DNA of 64,000 nucleotides, from assembly GCF_032714615.1 (NCBI RefSeq), contig NZ_JAWDKA010000004.1:62001-126000 (forward strand). The letters are read 5' to 3'. The translations under genes were made by a program, and so were the position numbers. The stretch comes from Methanorbis furvi (GTDB lineage: Archaea > Halobacteriota > Methanomicrobia > Methanomicrobiales > Methanocorpusculaceae). How positions within the stretch are numbered: the first letter of the stretch is position 1; the number at the start of each line of letters is the position of its first letter. The notes below the pieces were generated by a model. That model was not told where the DNA came from, ran no database searches, and worked only from the letters and a program-made list of their open reading frames with translations. Positions 75-50,250 of the stretch are shown here, in pieces.

Positions 75-968
75 ATGTTCCAGCATACAAAGGATATCAG
101 TATGAGATATATGCCGGATACACCGGAAAAAAATCCGCAAAAGTCTGCCGGGGATCCGCTCAAGGGAGTGGCGTTTGCTGTATCCGTTGCCGGTTCTGAC
201 CCGTCAGCAGGTGCCGGACTGCAGGTTGATCTGAAGACGATGACGGCATGCGGTGTTTGGGGAATGACAGTCGTTGCTGCTCTTACCGCGCAGAATGCAA
301 ACCATGTGACAAGCACAGCGTCTGTTGAGCCTGAGTTTATCGGACAACAGATAGCAGCTCTTGAGGAGGATTTTCCGATCGGCTGCTACAAGACAGGGAT
401 GCTGAAGAATGCGGAGACGGTTCGTGCTGTTGCGAGATCTCTGCCGGAGGATCGGGAGCTTGTTATTGATCCGGTCCTTCTTGCGACCCGCGAGTACCGG
501 CTGCTGGATGAAGGAGGAGAACGTGAACTTGTCGAGTCGCTGATTCCCCGTGCGAGTGTGGTTACGCCGAATCTGCCGGAGGCAAAGGTTCTCTCAGGTA
601 TCGATATTGTCGATGCCGCATCGATGGAGGAGGCAGCAAGCTGGTTCCTGGATCTCGGGGCAAAGTCTGTTGTCATCAAGGGAGGGCATGCAGATTTCCG
701 CAAGGCAACGGATGTGTTTGCGGATAAAAACGGAACAGTGCTTCTCCACGGCAATGTGTATCCGCTTGAGGATGTTCACGGTTCGGGCTGCTGTTTTGCA
801 TCAGCCATTGCATCCCATATCGCCCTCGGCTATCCGGTCAGGGAGGCATGTGCGGAGGCGAAGCTCTTTGTGGATGGAGCAATCCGTTATGCAGTTGAGT
901 ATGCTCCGGGAAGATTCACGATGAATCCCGGATGGCAGCAGCATACAAGCTACGGTAAAAAATTCTAA
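75..968 (+). CDS. thiD: hydroxymethylpyrimidine / phosphomethylpyrimidine kinase
   Basis: ThiD phosphorylates hydroxymethylpyrimidine and its monophosphate to give the pyrimidine half of thiamine; it is cytosolic. The ribokinase fold shows in the N-terminal AGSDPSAGAG nucleotide/substrate loop (residues 39-48), KTGML (106-110), VTPNLPEA (163-170) and the anion-hole motif HGSGCCFASAI (235-245). The body matches the usual length of about 265 residues, but there are about 30 extra N-terminal residues. An alternative ATG at 102 has AGGAT 6 bases upstream; the ATG at 75 is preceded by GGAAGGATG at 55-63, so either may be used. No second (ThiN or ThiE) domain is fused at the C-terminus. The gene stands alone, followed by a large repeat region. 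Confidence 0.93.
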   Translation: MFQHTKDISMRYMPDTPEKNPQKSAGDPLKGVAFAVSVAGSDPSAGAGLQVDLKTMTACGVWGMTVVAALTAQNANHVTSTASVEPEFIGQQIAALEEDFPIGCYKTGMLKNAETVRAVARSLPEDRELVIDPVLLATREYRLLDEGGERELVESLIPRASVVTPNLPEAKVLSGIDIVDAASMEEAASWFLDLGAKSVVIKGGHADFRKATDVFADKNGTVLLHGNVYPLEDVHGSGCCFASAIASHIALGYPVREACAEAKLFVDGAIRYAVEYAPGRFTMNPGWQQHTSYGKKF

Positions 969-1052
969 ACGCGAATAGCGCGAATAGCGCGAATAGCATG
1001 CCTGCGGCCTGCTCACCGCATCGCGGAATAAAAAATCGCCAATGGCGATTTT
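969..1052 (+). repeat. family C repeat, left half only
   Basis: Iterated 'gcgaatag' units lead into a conserved core (catgcctgcggcctgctc, then accgcatcgcgg) and a palindrome AATCGCCAATGGCGATT followed by T9. The same arrangement recurs at 43.6 and 49.9 kb. Here the right half is missing and a family A element begins 12 bases further on. The palindrome plus T-run could also terminate thiD transcription. Confidence 0.8.
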
Positions 1053-4954: not shown

Positions 4955-7300
4955 TCAGGGACTCTGGCCCTGGAACATCACCGCAAACCGCGTGACAAGA
5001 GCAGCGAGGATAAAGTATCCGAGCAGAACATGCACCAGAGAAAAGAGCATAGGAATGTATCCCAGATTCTTCGTTGCAATATCGGTGATACTGAAAAGAA
5101 TCATCGTCGTCTGCATGAATCCCATTACCGGCCCTGACGTATTTGCAAGAAGCGGCACAGGATCAATACCGCTCGGCGTCAGCGCAGGCAGAACAGGCAC
5201 AACATACAGATACAGGAACGTGAACACCAGATTCAGCAGGATGAACGCTCCGACAATCGGCCAGGTCTTACTGCCGTAGTCAGAGATTTTCCAGAAAAGT
5301 TTCACCGGCAGGTTCACGAACACCGACTCAAAGACCTGAACAATACCTTCAAAAAGTGTCCGGACAGGTTTCTCGGAAAACCGTTTCTTCCACTGATCGG
5401 CTCCTGACGATGAAGATGAGACAAAATTTCTCAGCCTTGCAGCGACCGAAGAGTTTTCGGGAACGTACGGCTGCTTGATCTTTGGAAGCTCGGGCTCTTC
5501 GGGAACTCCTGCCTGCCTGCCGATCCAGCGGAGAATTTTTTTCTCGGCATACCACTCGCCCCACCAGATCTTGCGGATATTGCGAAGAAGTCGGGACTGA
5601 AGTTTCGGATCGACTCTCGCGGCTGATATGCCCACACCGGTAAAGTCGGTGTTGCCGTCAATCGCACACTTCGCAATAACGGTCCTGCCGTCAACACTGG
5701 CAAGGTAACAGGTCGTACCGAACAGCGTTGCGTTGCGGAATTTTACGCCTTCGAGGTACGCCTCGGAAAGATCAGCGCCGGTAAGATCAGCACCGGAGAG
5801 GTCAGCCTCCTTGACGTCAGCCTCGCGAAGGTTTGCCTCGACAAGTTTCACCCGCCAGAGAACTGCGTCCTGCAGGTCGGCCTGTCTGAGATCAGCCTTG
5901 GTCAGGTCGGCTCCTTCAAGCCTTGCCTCTTCGATCACGGCATTTCTGAGATCGCATCTTGACATTTTTGCTCCCCGCATCTCAGTACGCATGAACGTTG
6001 CGTTTCGCAGATCAGCAGCAGTCATGTCAGCGCCATCCATCACGGCACGACGGAAGTCGGTGTGTTTTGCAGAGACACCGCGAAGAACAGCTCCTGAAAG
6101 AAGGGATGCTTCAAAATTTGCGTTGTCAAGCCGGCATCCTTCCATGTTCGCCTGAGTCAGATCAGCTTCGCCAAGGGCAGCGCCCGAGAGATTTGTTCTG
6201 ATAAGCGTGGTCTCGCGAAGTGTTGCTGCCCGCAGATGTGCGCCAACTAAATCAGCATCGGTGAGGTTGGCATTTTTCAGATCGGCCCGGTCAAGTTCAG
6301 CGTCATGGAGGTCAGCACGGAGAAGGTTTGCGCCGATAAGTTTTGCGTCGGAGAGGTTGGCACGGGAGAGTTTTGCGCCGTCAAGTTTTGCCTCCGTAAG
6401 ATCTGCGTCGCAAAGATTCGCCTCGCGGAGGTCAGCTTCGCTGATCTCTGCTTCGGTAAGTACTGCGCCTGAAAGATCTGCTTCATAGAGATTAGTTCTG
6501 AGAAGGACCGAGTAGGAGAGGTCTGCGTCCCTGAGAACGGCAAGGCCGAGTTTTGCTCCGCGCATTCTGGCACTGCCGAGTTTTGCACCGGAGAGGTCAG
6601 CCTTGAACAGGTCGGCTCCTTCAAGGTTTGCCTCGCGAAGATCTGCACCGGAAAGGTTTGCTTCGCGAAGGTCAGCGCCTGAAAGGTTTGTCTCACGAAG
6701 GTCAGCGCCCGAAAGGTTCGCCTCCCTGAGGTCGGCTCCTTCAAGAACTGCGATGCTGAGTTTTGCACCGGAGAGATCAGCTTTGAACAGGTCAGCTCCT
6801 TCGAGGTTTGCTTCCCTGAGGTCGGCATCGCAAAGGTTTGCTGCTTTGAGATCTGATTCGACAAGGTTTGCTTCCCGCATGTCAGCACCGGAGAGGTCAG
6901 CTTCATGCAGGTCTGCTCCGGTAAGGTTTGCACGAAAGAGTGAGGATTTGGCAAGGTGTGCACGGGCGAGTGAGGCTTTTTCCAGATTGGTTTTGTAGAA
7001 GTTGGCACGTTCCAGCCATGCGTCCCGAAGTTCGATGCCTTTGAGGTTGAGTTCTGCGAGGCCCGCGCCTTCGAGGCGGACACCATGATCTCCGGCGCTA
7101 TCGTAGACGGTGTCGTGAAGTCCTGCACGATCCATCCAGATGTCTGAGCCTGAAATGGATTTGAGTTCTTCGACGACGGCGAGGTATGGTTTGTTCCACT
7201 CGCTGAGGTCGCCGGTCTTTGCGCAGTGAATCAGCCGGTTGTACTGGTTTTGATCGAATCCCGGTCCGGGATTCTCCGGACATCCTTCTCCCTCTCCCAT
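4955..7300 (-). CDS. pentapeptide-repeat protein with C-terminal two-helix pore-like membrane domain
   Basis: Of the 781 residues, about 82-545 are almost unbroken A(D/N)LxxA pentapeptides (for example LSGADLREANLSGADLREA), which would form a long right-handed quadrilateral beta helix. After a basic linker come two hydrophobic helices, TWPIVGAFILLNLVFTFLYL and LFSLVHVLLGYFILAALVTR. Between them lies a re-entrant-like stretch, ILFSITDIATKNLGYIPM, in the place where two-helix K+ channels carry TVGYG; the canonical filter is not intact. By analogy with pentapeptide-channel fusions this is a membrane protein with a large cytoplasmic rod. Channel activity is an inference and may be lost. The start ATG has GGAT a few bases upstream. 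It is divergent from the small gene at 7389, and its long repeats create many spurious antisense open frames. Confidence 0.85.
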   Translation of the reverse strand: MGEGEGCPENPGPGFDQNQYNRLIHCAKTGDLSEWNKPYLAVVEELKSISGSDIWMDRAGLHDTVYDSAGDHGVRLEGAGLAELNLKGIELRDAWLERANFYKTNLEKASLARAHLAKSSLFRANLTGADLHEADLSGADMREANLVESDLKAANLCDADLREANLEGADLFKADLSGAKLSIAVLEGADLREANLSGADLRETNLSGADLREANLSGADLREANLEGADLFKADLSGAKLGSARMRGAKLGLAVLRDADLSYSVLLRTNLYEADLSGAVLTEAEISEADLREANLCDADLTEAKLDGAKLSRANLSDAKLIGANLLRADLHDAELDRADLKNANLTDADLVGAHLRAATLRETTLIRTNLSGAALGEADLTQANMEGCRLDNANFEASLLSGAVLRGVSAKHTDFRRAVMDGADMTAADLRNATFMRTEMRGAKMSRCDLRNAVIEEARLEGADLTKADLRQADLQDAVLWRVKLVEANLREADVKEADLSGADLTGADLSEAYLEGVKFRNATLFGTTCYLASVDGRTVIAKCAIDGNTDFTGVGISAARVDPKLQSRLLRNIRKIWWGEWYAEKKILRWIGRQAGVPEEPELPKIKQPYVPENSSVAARLRNFVSSSSSGADQWKKRFSEKPVRTLFEGIVQVFESVFVNLPVKLFWKISDYGSKTWPIVGAFILLNLVFTFLYLYVVPVLPALTPSGIDPVPLLANTSGPVMGFMQTTMILFSITDIATKNLGYIPMLFSLVHVLLGYFILAALVTRFAVMFQGQSP

Positions 7301-9620: not shown

Positions 9621-10481
9621 ATGCAGTTTTCACAGTTCCGTTTTGCTTCGGTTCATAAAAAATATCTGATAGTCGAAGGCGATGTCCCAAATACCTGCGG
9701 GTATGAGTATCCGGGAGATGGAAACAGTTTTCTTGCGTACTGTTTCTATGATACTGCGAAAGGGCTGAGCTGTTTTGTGCTCGGGACCACCATCTTCGCA
9801 GACCAGAAGCTGACCTTTGTCTCAGAAACACCCGAGGACTCTCTGGTTACGCTTGACGGAGGTGATATTGCGGAGAGAGAGTGCACGCCGCTTCGCAGCG
9901 ATGTATTTGATCTCTCCAGATTTTCATACATTGAAGCCGAAGCTGAGAAACGTGACCCTTCACCAAAGACGGTGGAGAAAATTCTCCTCAGCAGACTCTG
10001 CGGTATCTGCATTCACCATCACGGACGAAACGGCTGGCGTACATGTCCGGCATTTTCAACAAAAATTCCTGATGAAATATGGAACGCAGAAGCTGATCCA
10101 AAAGTTCCCTGCAGTGAAGGTATCGGTTTTGTCCAGAAGGAGCCGCAGCTGTTTCTTGAGGTGATCGATGCGGTGTCCGGAAAAGTGGTCTACCGCTACG
10201 AGGCAGTTGGTGATCCTCTGCATCCAAGAGAGATCTATGAAAGCTCAGATCTTGGCGAATCCATTCTTGCAGCATTCAAAGATATGATGGATGACTGGTA
10301 TGATCATGTCTCAGAACCCATGAAGGAACTCCTTCACTGCAAAACAAGTGACGGAGCGTTTGTTGCGGAACTGTCCGCAATCAATGTGGCAATGACCATC
10401 AACAAACAGATGGGACGGGAAGTATACCGGATCATCGACGAGTTCCCCGAGTACCCTGATGATGAATGTCTGAGAATCTGA
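9621..10481 (+). CDS. hypothetical protein
   Basis: I do not recognise this 286-residue soluble protein. It begins MQFSQFRFASVHKKYLIVEG if the ATG at 9621 is used; an in-frame TTG at 9552 would add 23 residues. It has no signal peptide or membrane segment. Cysteine- and histidine-bearing stretches (RLCGICIHHHGRNGWRTCPAF) in the middle could bind metal. The C-terminal third is acidic and helical, ending in FPEYPDDECLRI. Base composition is like the neighbouring housekeeping genes. It is divergent from pdxST and convergent with the catalase, with a family C repeat following its stop codon. Confidence 0.6.
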   Translation: MQFSQFRFASVHKKYLIVEGDVPNTCGYEYPGDGNSFLAYCFYDTAKGLSCFVLGTTIFADQKLTFVSETPEDSLVTLDGGDIAERECTPLRSDVFDLSRFSYIEAEAEKRDPSPKTVEKILLSRLCGICIHHHGRNGWRTCPAFSTKIPDEIWNAEADPKVPCSEGIGFVQKEPQLFLEVIDAVSGKVVYRYEAVGDPLHPREIYESSDLGESILAAFKDMMDDWYDHVSEPMKELLHCKTSDGAFVAELSAINVAMTINKQMGREVYRIIDEFPEYPDDECLRI

Positions 10482-10483
10482 AC

Positions 10484-10856
10484 CGCGAGGAACGCTAAGA
10501 ACGCGAATAGCACGAATAGCGCGAATAAAAAATCGCCATTGGCAATTTTTGAAAATTTACTAAAAAATATTTCAAACAGATTTTTTTGTTCCAAAATGTA
10601 GAGAGAATTTTTTTTGAAAAATCGTCATTGGCGATTTTCGAAAATTTACTAAAAAATATTTCAGACAGATTTCTTTGTTTCAAAATGTAGAGAGAATTTT
10701 TTTGAAAAACCGCCATTGGCAATTTTTGAAAATTTACTAAAAAATATTTCAAACAGATTTTTTTGTTCCAAAATGTAGAGAGAAATTTTTTTTAATTCGC
10801 GCTATTCGCGTTATTCCGCGAAGCGGTGAGCAGGCCGAAGGCATGCGATTCGCGTT
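10484..10856. repeat. family C repeat with three tandem 88-90 bp units
   Basis: Outer ends are 'gcgaatag' iterations on the left and their reverse complement plus the core (gaagcggtgagcaggccgaa) on the right. Between them are three tandem units starting at 10531, 10621 and 10709. Each has a palindrome like ATCGCCATTGGCAATTTTT followed by about 70 bases (gaaaatttactaaaaaatat through ccaaaatgtagagaga). Copies differ at a handful of positions. The gap lies between two convergent genes and encodes nothing credible. Confidence 0.85.
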
Positions 10857-10895
10857 TCATTTTTCAAAAAAAAATAATTTTCAATCAGCCGAGTC

Positions 10896-12437
10896 TCACA
10901 TACTCGGCAGAGTCGCCGCAATCAGCGACGGATGATCACCCTTCGCAAGTTCTGCGACCCGCATCTGATCAAGTCCCAAGGCCTTTGTCATCCGCTCGCC
11001 GTACTCAGGATCAGCCCACACGCAGTGAACAGCGTGGCGGTACTTGATGTTCTCAGTACATGCCTCAATATTTCTCGCAGTGTTTTCGATCAGAAGAACT
11101 TTTTTGTCCTCTGCAAGAACTCTCCAGAGATCTCCTCCGGCACGGAAACAGTCGTCGGTTGGATCATCGGTCGGGTCATACGCATACATTGCGCCCGAAA
11201 GATCAAGCGGCGGCTCCAGAACATCCGGCTGCGCAGTCCACACACCGTAACTGTTCGGCGTGTAGGCAGGAGTTCCGCCATAATTTCCGTCGGTTCTCAT
11301 GTGACCGTCGCGGTGATAATCATGAACCTCACACTTCGCACGATTGACCGGAATCTGATTGTAGTTTACCCCGAGACGGTATCTCTGAGCGTCACCGTAC
11401 GCAAACAGACGACCCTGAAGGAACTTGTCGGGACTGAAACCAATTCCCGGAACAACATGGGCTGGCGTGAATGCGGACTGCTCGACCTCGGCAAAGTAGT
11501 TCTCAGGATTGCGGTTCAGCTCAAGAACGCCGACTTCAATTAAAGGATACTCGGCATGCCGCCAGATCTTGGTGATGTCAAACGGATTTTCGTAATGATT
11601 TTTCGCCTGCTCCTCGGTCATGATCTGTACATACATCGTCCAGCGAGGGAACTCGCCGCGTTCGATCGCCTCAAAAAGATCACGGCCATGACTCTCGCGA
11701 TCGTTTGCAATGATCGCGGCGGCTTCTGCGTCAGTGAGATTTTTGATTCCCTGCTGGGTTTTGAAATGGAACTTGCACCAGACACGTTCGTTGTTTTTGT
11801 TGTAGAGGCTGAAGGTGTGTTCGCCGAAGGTGTGCATGTGGCGGTAGCTTGCAGGAATGCCGCGGTCCGACATAACGATGGTGACCTGATGGAAACACTC
11901 CGGCAGCATGGTCCAGAAGTCCCAGTTGTTCTGGGCTGAACGCATGTTGGTCTTCGGGTCGCGTTTTACCGCACGGTTGAGATCAGGGAAGTGATGAACG
12001 TCGCGGATGAAGAAGGTGGGTGTGTTGTTGCCGACGAGATCCCAGTTGCCTTCTTCGGTATAGAACTTGCAGGCAAATCCGCGAATGTCGCGTTCTGCAT
12101 CAGCAGCCCCCCGTTCTCCGGCAACGGTGGAGAACCTGACAAACAGATCGGTCTTTGCACCGGGCTGGAGAACTTTTGCTTTGGTGTATTTGGAGATGTC
12201 ATGGGTTACGGTGAGCGTTCCGTACGCCCCGGATCCTTTTGCATGCATTCTTCGTTCCGGGATGACCTCGCGGTTGAAGTGGGCGATCTTTTCAAGCAGC
12301 CAGACATCCTGCAGCATGACCGGCCCCCGCGGTCCTGCGGTAACGGCGTGATCATTCTGGCCAACGGGAGCACCGACTTCGTTGGTAAGTTTGCCGTGTT
12401 CTGACGGTTTCATAATGTTAGATGATTGACGGGTCAT
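10896..12437 (-). CDS. monofunctional heme catalase
   Basis: This enzyme breaks down hydrogen peroxide to water and oxygen, protecting an anaerobe during oxygen exposure. The 513 residues match small-subunit clade catalases: the distal histidine region [20 protein letters not shown], the asparagine region [12 protein letters not shown], and the proximal heme-ligand signature [14 protein letters not shown]. The C-terminus ends in a normal catalase tail without the extra flavodoxin-like domain of large catalases. Two starts are possible: MTRQSSN or the methionine nine codons later (MKPSEHGKL). It stands alone, flanked by repeats on both sides. The family is mainly bacterial, so acquisition by transfer is likely but cannot be proved from this window. 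Confidence 0.96.
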
Positions 12438-19966: not shown

Positions 19967-20003
19967 TTTTTTTATTCGCGTCATTCGCGTTTCATATCCT
20001 CAT

Positions 20004-20035
20004 CCTACCCTACCCTACCCTACCCTACCCTACCC
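20004..20035 (+). repeat. CCTAC pentanucleotide tandem repeat
   Basis: Six perfect CCTAC units (20004-20033) end in CC, about 45 bases before the aminopeptidase start. The tract is not in that gene's reading frame but lies in its probable promoter or leader. It follows a fragment of the family C end (ttattcgcgtcattcgcgtt) at about 19972-19992. Confidence 0.85.
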
Positions 20036-37484: not shown

Positions 37485-37546
37485 GAAACGCGAATCGCAG
37501 GCCGGAGGCATGCGATTCGCGCTATTCGCGTTCTTCGCGTTTCAGA
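37485..37546 (-). repeat. family C fragment between the two MFS genes
   Basis: gcgaatcgcaggccggaggc, then atgcgattcgcgctattcgc, then the gttcttcgcgttt end: the reverse-orientation core and 'gcgaatag' iterations without the palindrome units. Confidence 0.7.
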
Positions 37547-43623: not shown

Positions 43624-43831
43624 AAACGCGAATAACACGAATAGCGCGAATCGCATGCCTCCGGCCTGCTCACCGCTTCGCGGAATAAAAAAATCGCCAA
43701 TGGCGATTTTTCAAAAAAAATTGTTCCTCATTGAATGAATTTGGGTGTCTGAAATAAGTAATATTAATATAACCATAAAATATAATCCTAAAAATCGCCA
43801 TTGGCGATTTTTTATTCGTGCTATTCGCGTT
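43624..43831. repeat. family C repeat with one enclosed unit
   Basis: The 'gcgaataacacgaatagcgc' end and the core (atgcctccggcctgctcacc, then gcttcgcgg) lead to palindrome ATCGCCAATGGCGATTTTT at 43693. About 80 unique bases follow, then palindrome ATCGCCATTGGCGATTTTT at 43794 and the reversed end. There is one unit here where the loci at 10.5 and 49.9 kb have three. Confidence 0.82.
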
Positions 43832-49831: not shown

Positions 49832-49852
49832 GTTCGGCATGGTATTTTGAAA

Positions 49853-50233
49853 ACGCGAATAGCGCGAATCGCATGCCTCTGGCCTGCTCACCGTTTCACG
49901 GAATAAAAAAAATCGCCAATGGCGATTTTTCAAAAAGAAATTTTCTGTGTATCTTAATACGAAAAAAATCTGAAAAAATTATTTTGATAAATTTTTAAAA
50001 ATCGCCATTGGAGATTTTTCAAAAAGAAATTTTCTGCGTATCTTACTACGAAAAAAAAATCTGAAAAAATTATTTTGATAAACTTTTAAAAATCGCCATT
50101 GGAGATTTTTCAAAAAGAAATTTTCTATGTATCTTACTACGAAAAAAAAAATCTGAAAAAATTATTTTGATAAATTTTGAAAAATCGCCATTGGCGATTT
50201 TTTTTATTCGCGCTATTCGCGCCATTCGCGTTT
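49853..50233. repeat. family C repeat with three tandem 89-93 bp units
   Basis: The left end carries 'gcgaatagcgcgaatcgcat' and the core (gcctctggcctgctcaccgt). Palindrome-led units start at 49912, 50001 and 50091, and a closing palindrome at 50184 is followed by the reversed end (attcgcgctattcgcgccat). Each unit is palindrome, then caaaaagaaattttctg, then cgaaaaaaatctgaaaaaat and tattttgataaa. This unit is different in sequence from the tandem unit at 10.5 kb. It lies between convergent genes. Confidence 0.86.
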
Positions 50234-50250
50234 CATTTTTCAAAAAAAAA

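Follow-up and report, generated by a model that had tools for sequence, protein, structure and literature searches.

A palindrome-bounded repeat unit at 10.5 kb probably belongs to a BOX/MITE-like interspersed family of a methanogenic archaeon

At about 10.5 kb of the DNA stretch analysed here (64,000 nucleotides in all, hereafter the window), three units of nearly equal length stand in tandem, each headed by a short palindrome, and the same palindrome heads three further units at 49.9 kb. This raises the question of what is being repeated and how a unit bounded in this way comes to be multiplied at one place. A preliminary description held that the palindrome and the outer ends are common to the two loci, that the enclosed unit is private to each and amplified in place, and that a mechanism duplicating whatever lies between palindromes may be at work.

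The layout of the two arrays agrees with that description. At 10.5 kb, TRF places three 88–89 bp units head-to-tail at 10528–10793 (91% matches), and the pattern search finds a palindrome at the head of each, starting at 10532, 10621 and 10709. On the forward strand the element opens with a left outer arm of degenerate CGCGAATAGCGCGAAT repeats, recognised by sequence and pattern (10485–10526). Palindrome 1 (ATCGCCATTGGCAAT; 10532–10546) leads into the core of unit 1 (10547–10620, in + orientation). Palindrome 2 (ATCGTCATTGGCGAT; 10621–10635), with a private change also seen in palindrome 2 of a sister species, precedes the core of unit 2 (10636–10708), and palindrome 3 (ACCGCCATTGGCAAT; 10709–10723) precedes that of unit 3 (10724–10794). 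A right outer arm with a GC-rich module (ATTCCGCGAAGCGGTGAGCAGGCCGAAGGCATGCGATTCGCG; 10795–10858) completes the element, which is flanked by two open frames that converge on it, one without a name (end at 10481) and one resembling a catalase (end at 10896), the latter matching NCBIfam PRK11249.1 with 436 bits, below the model's cut-off.

At 49908–50202, where units of about 90 bp had been reported, TRF and the pattern search find units of 89, 91 and 92 bp followed by a fourth, closing palindrome, which is absent after unit 3 at 10.5 kb. This array (49912–50198, minus strand; palindromes at 49912, 50001, 50092 and 50184, with three reversed cores) stands between a left outer arm with GC-rich module (49849–49904, plus strand) and a right outer arm (50206–50234, plus strand), and is flanked by the convergent genes for replication factor C small subunit 2 and purB. 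The outer ends, CGCGAATAGCGCGAAT ... ATTCGCGCTATTCGCG, are indeed common to both loci, with 14 pattern matches in the window against a shuffle mean of 0.05, and the palindrome (AAAAATCGCCAWTGGCGATTTTT, at most three mismatches) gives 20 strand-matches there against none in 100 shuffles.

Both arrays belong to a larger family. Around matches we gathered 64 stretches from the same genome, the window included, and 71 from the sister species (G019), which is of the same genus and shares long matches of about 87–94% identity in aligned DNA; both hosts are methanogens, as mcrA is present in each. Grouping of palindromes and cores yielded 69 places in our genome and 76 in the sister. The elements follow the order outer GC-rich inverted arm, optional GC module, palindrome, core, palindrome, arm. 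The family's outer ends read GAAACGCGAAT...ATTCGCGTTTC, and the two sides of the frame carry AAAAATCGCCAATGGCGATTTTT and its reverse complement, sometimes with a GC-rich hairpin module. The palindrome heading each unit is of the type AAAAATCGCCATTGGCGATTTTT, and the left (CGCGAATAGCGCGAAT) and right (ATTCGCGCTATTCGCG) outer arms are degenerate and GC-rich. Two palindromes around one core is the commonest form (32/69 in our genome, 39/76 in the sister). Two or more cores occur at five of our places (10.5 kb, 49.9 kb, L021, L031 and L055, the last with short cores) and at three in the sister. Single palindromes with no recognised core account for 16 of 69 and 15 of 76 places, of which five and three, respectively, pass a strict test for a lone palindrome placed directly between arms. 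One element (L017) folds as a long hairpin (−54.6 kcal/mol as DNA, z −12.7).

The family has some marks of a MITE, being short, non-coding, present in many copies (69 places) and equipped with terminal inverted repeats (arms and fold), and it shares with BOX elements a fixed outer frame enclosing tandem inner modules that vary in number. The 10.5 kb feature is probably one copy of such a composite, non-coding MITE/BOX-like interspersed repeat, a degree of confidence that we attach to the whole slippage model set out below, and we take the family for a probable hitch-hiker in the genome, not a gene. Its range is narrow: allowing one mismatch at most, the palindrome was found in 2 of 100 relatives, the full-length consensus matches 2 of 25 genus genomes, and no member was detected in the 23 other genus genomes. 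Among public genome contigs, in a collection that may omit this genome and its near relatives, the exact 23-base palindrome gave single hits in five stretches of unrelated bacteria, which are probably due to chance.

Whether the enclosed units are unrelated between loci was decided by the cores themselves. All 92 palindrome-bounded cores from the two species fit one alignment when each is turned to its better orientation, with 45 in one and 47 in the other and hence no preference (p 0.92). The ancestral core is about 75 bp long and AT-rich, with a consensus, drawn by eye, of roughly TTTTAAGAAATTACTAAAATTATTTATTTTTAGACAGATCTATTCGTTCAGAAAAACACAAATAATTTTTTTTGAAAA. A held-out profile was then built from 85 training cores, leaving out both window arrays and their sister copies, though the orientations of the 85 had been set using all 92. 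Against this profile, four units of the 10.5 and 49.9 kb arrays score 23.2–24.4 bits, with the 49.9 kb units read reversed, and the third 10.5 kb unit, end-trimmed by the analyst, scores 15.3 bits. The maximum for dinucleotide shuffles (500 per unit) is 9.3 bits, and each of the five units beats 500 of 500. Judged by its sequence, the 49.9 kb unit is the 10.5 kb core on the other strand, diverged. The statement that, palindrome apart, the units of the two loci are unlike therefore has to be withdrawn (15.3–24.4 against at most 9.3 bits), and with it the ‘private’ unit: the 92 of 92 aligned cores and the held-out test trace the units at all loci to one ancestral sequence, the very finding named beforehand as speaking against privacy. 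Since the units share one ancestor, ‘private’ can only mean diverged, not unrelated.

Amplification in place, by comparison, is supported. Units within an array are 93.4–98.7% identical (four arrays of our genome measured), whereas cores from different loci have a median identity of 62.2% (5–95% range 48–75; 300 random pairs of 1117 in our genome). The sister array L118 is an exception, its two cores being 72.5% alike. Orthologous gaps could be compared for 52 of 53 pairs (L111/L028 was dropped, having no anchors). Cores are present in both species at 21 of these gaps (17 of them 1:1), in ours only at 18, in the sister only at four and in neither at nine; the pairs were chosen mostly from our own copies, which inflates the class present only in our genome. 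All four shared array sites differ in number between the two species, with own-to-sister core counts of 3:2 (the 10.5 kb site), 4:2, 2:1 and 1:2, in contig-level assemblies that may miscount tandem units. At three pairs (L032/L086, L018/L096 and L055/L139) a core in one species faces a lone palindrome in the other.

The palindromes suggest how such changes could arise. They are inverted repeats and at the same time direct repeats of each other, differing only at the centre base, so that one can slip out of register with its neighbour at a replication fork or in a recombination intermediate. Mispairing of this kind, in replication or recombination, would duplicate or delete exactly one palindrome plus core; duplication would build the tandem arrays and deletion would leave the core-less lone palindromes. 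The molecular route would be slippage or unequal exchange. We consider it probable that the family changes in this way, by palindrome-bounded gain and loss of a shared core within a BOX/MITE-like repeat.

The 10.5 kb array itself carries traces that fit this model. The sister's array at the orthologous site consists of two units, and the palindromes at its two ends are intact. Unit 3 of our array is nearest to unit 1 (96.6% identity, against 90.9% to its neighbour unit 2), whereas the closest relative of unit 2 is unit 2 of the sister (95.5%). Palindrome 3, which heads unit 3, combines ACCGCC, the left half found in the sister's last palindrome, with GGCAAT, the right half found in palindrome 1; with the sister standing in for the ancestor, and on two positions, it has the appearance of a hybrid between the last palindrome and the first. 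A hybrid palindrome followed by a copy of unit 1 is what mispairing between palindromes leads one to expect. On the simplest reading, the last palindrome would have paired with the first in our own lineage, and unit 1 would have been copied again. As unit 3 lacks a closing palindrome, a second deletion must be assumed, which would have removed that palindrome, probably between T-runs.

How far the mechanism duplicates ‘whatever lies between palindromes’ is a separate matter. That proposal stands in part: repeats in the arrays are bounded by the palindrome, lone palindromes occur as deletion products, and some sites have had their core replaced. We found no instance in which unrelated host DNA had been captured and amplified, and the nested insertions found inside cores are other repeat families. 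One such family is nested in a core of the sister's array (L128, about 1340–1770), and a similar piece lies between the palindromes of L046 (about 1280–1450).

The replaced cores set a limit to the simplest form of the model. At the 21 sites with cores in both species, the sister ortholog is the best match at 12 and, by a hair, the second at one more (L065, 80%). At eight (L045, L051, L044, L041, L006, L019, L009 and L058) the core is not the ortholog, with identities of 51–73% and ranks of 2–23 out of 25, and simple in-place slippage is thus insufficient. Four of these eight cores are inverted, against none of the 13 retained (Fisher p 0.012). The outer junctions of L058/L134 match on both sides, exactly or almost exactly, around cores that are 51% identical. 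At least one side agrees at L019, L009, L051 and L006; the junctions are unclear at L044 and L041, where no match was obtained, and at L045 the left boundary was sought and not found.

One explanation of these sites is that the palindromes are points of exchange, through which cores move between loci as cassettes, in either orientation, by gene conversion or a recombinase, leaving arrays as a by-product. The eight non-orthologous cores with their four inversions, the kept junctions of L058/L134, and close core pairs across loci (our L052 and the sister's L079, 93.6%; our L067 and the sister's L082, 86.8%) all point this way. Against this, the sites are few and include a truncated core (L009) and a complex site (L045), a match on both sides is clear only at L058, and an element may instead have been lost and another inserted afresh in that gap. 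We therefore regard exchange as a possible but tentative explanation. Its fullest form, a palindrome-framed cassette site whose frame stays long fixed in place while the core of about 75 bp is exchanged either way, duplicated or removed, with the palindromes as exchange points, perhaps for a hairpin- or cruciform-processing enzyme, seems to us unlikely. Were it true that cores exchange at palindromes, very short palindromes would be directing recombination. Inversion of a core in place, between its inverted palindromes, was considered separately and looks rare, since no retained-core site (0/13) is inverted.

Mispairing between palindromes would account for changes within an element, and the placing of the elements bears on how they arrived and whether they serve the host. 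Convergent neighbours outnumber divergent ones by 31:8 (69 places in our genome) and 37:4 (78 places in the sister), where 1:1 is expected; the counts are based on longest open frames rather than gene calls, one side was undefined at two places in each species, and the two sets overlap by orthology. This bias is compatible with harmful insertions having been purged and also with a function where transcripts end. Selection for a function as bidirectional transcription terminators or mRNA-end hairpins would explain it, and the palindrome hairpin does have flanking A and T runs on both strands. Against this, the scanner calls nothing terminator-like at the palindromes of the 10.5 kb array, both the cores and the number of units drift, the sister's same gap is often empty or holds another repeat family, and the removal of insertions from promoters would yield an equal bias. 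We judge a terminator role to be quite improbable. The element is probably a passenger, tolerated mainly between convergent genes.

Its original spread may have been by transposition. Going further, one might regard the family as an ordinary MITE, spread by an IS transposase in trans through repeated, independent insertions into the same gaps, with arrays arising from insertion of copy into copy. The many copies, long terminal inverted repeats, intergenic position and restriction to one lineage agree with this, as does the presence of cores in our genome alone at 18 of 52 gaps, a set chosen mostly from our own copies. No target duplication was recognised, however, and array units are parted by palindromes alone, never by outer arms. 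Twenty of the 28 unmatched loci of our genome were followed into the sister, and none of the 20 extra sister gaps read was recognised as a clean empty site with target duplication; the gaps hold scars, other repeats and unalignable sequence. RAYTs carry a Y1 domain, and a Y1 transposase was found in none of the seven genomes tested (the control was positive in 5 of 14), which counts against this explanation and led us to reject a REP/REPIN–RAYT system. Ordinary MITE spread of this kind, with arrays built by insertion of copy into copy, is in our estimate unlikely. Five sister gaps (L160, L162, L163, L164 and L165, facing our L015, L023, L029, L040 and L046) contain other repeats in place of the present family, mostly a long inverted-repeat family, GGAGTAACCACGGAATGCACGGAG ... 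CTCCGTGCATT, as if the gaps were reused.

Palindromic repeats with spacers of regular length also recall a CRISPR-like or small-RNA array. The would-be spacers are copies of one another (93–99% identical in the four arrays of our genome measured) rather than unique sequences, and no Rfam family was found in the window, which makes this reading exceedingly improbable; a CRISPR-like array was rejected on the homology of its spacers. Spread by phages or plasmids was likewise rejected, as there was no match in viral contigs (by pattern), plasmids or phages.

Among known systems, the closest kind are the BOX elements, together with minisatellite-bearing MITEs. In pneumococci, BOX is described as a tandem series of boxB modules, variable in length and enclosed by boxA and boxC; the number of boxB modules has been proposed to change by slipped mispairing, unequal crossover or excision and reinsertion (PMC3049150). 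Like boxA-boxB(n)-boxC of Streptococcus pneumoniae, described there as varying in inner number between strains at one site, the archaeal element is a composite with fixed outer modules (PMC3049150). Unlike in BOX, its outer modules form inverted repeats and include a palindrome, which separates the units as well, and its cores diverge strongly between loci and stand in either orientation; the comparison is one of architecture. BrickBuilt and PgRS (MITE464) of Porphyromonas gingivalis are similarly MITEs with an internal tandem array, reported to have nearly identical ends and different inner repeats (PMC4596501). They differ from the archaeal element in that their inner units are given as 23 or 41 nt, those of BrickBuilt as lacking spacers, and in that their ends match known IS5-family IS (PMC4596501), whereas the archaeal family is not known to have a partner IS and its units are bounded by palindromes. 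BIMEs and REPINs, described as extragenic palindromes in mosaic combinations (PMC3049150, PMC3116915), resemble the family in this respect; they are set apart by the lack of a Y1 transposase in 7/7 genomes here and by the A/T runs flanking the archaeal palindrome. Staphylococcal STAR elements are comparable by description alone, as interspersed intergenic direct repeats (PMC3532100).

A review of prokaryotic MITEs lists examples from the archaea Sulfolobus, Halobacterium, Haloquadratum and Desulfurococcus (PMC10969869). For M. labreanum, the paper on its genome, in the part available to us, mentions CRISPR repeats and no comparable family (PMC3035222). In the open-licence literature, a search for Methanocorpusculum, Methanomicrobiales or archaeal BOX-like repeats found no published description of the family. 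The present elements bring BOX-like composite repeats into a methanogenic archaeon and offer a natural two-species experiment, in which about 20 shared sites allow one to count how often a framed unit was duplicated, lost or replaced; the arrays are also ready variable-number markers for strain typing.

The window holds further copies in several states. A single-core copy on the minus strand (43693–43808) has two palindromes and one core in reverse orientation; near its counterpart the sister assembly breaks, at the ends of contigs C3 and C6 (L145, L146). A core-less copy (967–1049, plus strand) consists of a left arm and a lone palindrome. Directly adjoining that palindrome, which starts at 1035, is a second repeat family with ends ATAGGAGTTACGCGGTG ... 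CACCGCGTAACTCCTAT (1050–1660), absent from the sister there in a nearly clean empty-site comparison. At 37485–37543 (plus strand) a minimal remnant retains outer arms and GC module only, where the sister has palindrome and core. Such minimal forms, like GAAACGCGAATCGCAGGCCGAAGGCATG..., also occur at L074 and L150 where the other species has the full element, and may be either deletion products or precursors. A right-arm remnant (19974–19993, plus strand) corresponds to a left arm and palindrome in the sister. Close to it lies a CCTAC repeat of 6.4 copies (20004–20035), not seen in the sister's stretch. Elsewhere in the window, tandem repeats with periods of 30, 45 and 60 bp occupy 6290–6979, in what is presumably a gene for a pentapeptide-repeat protein.
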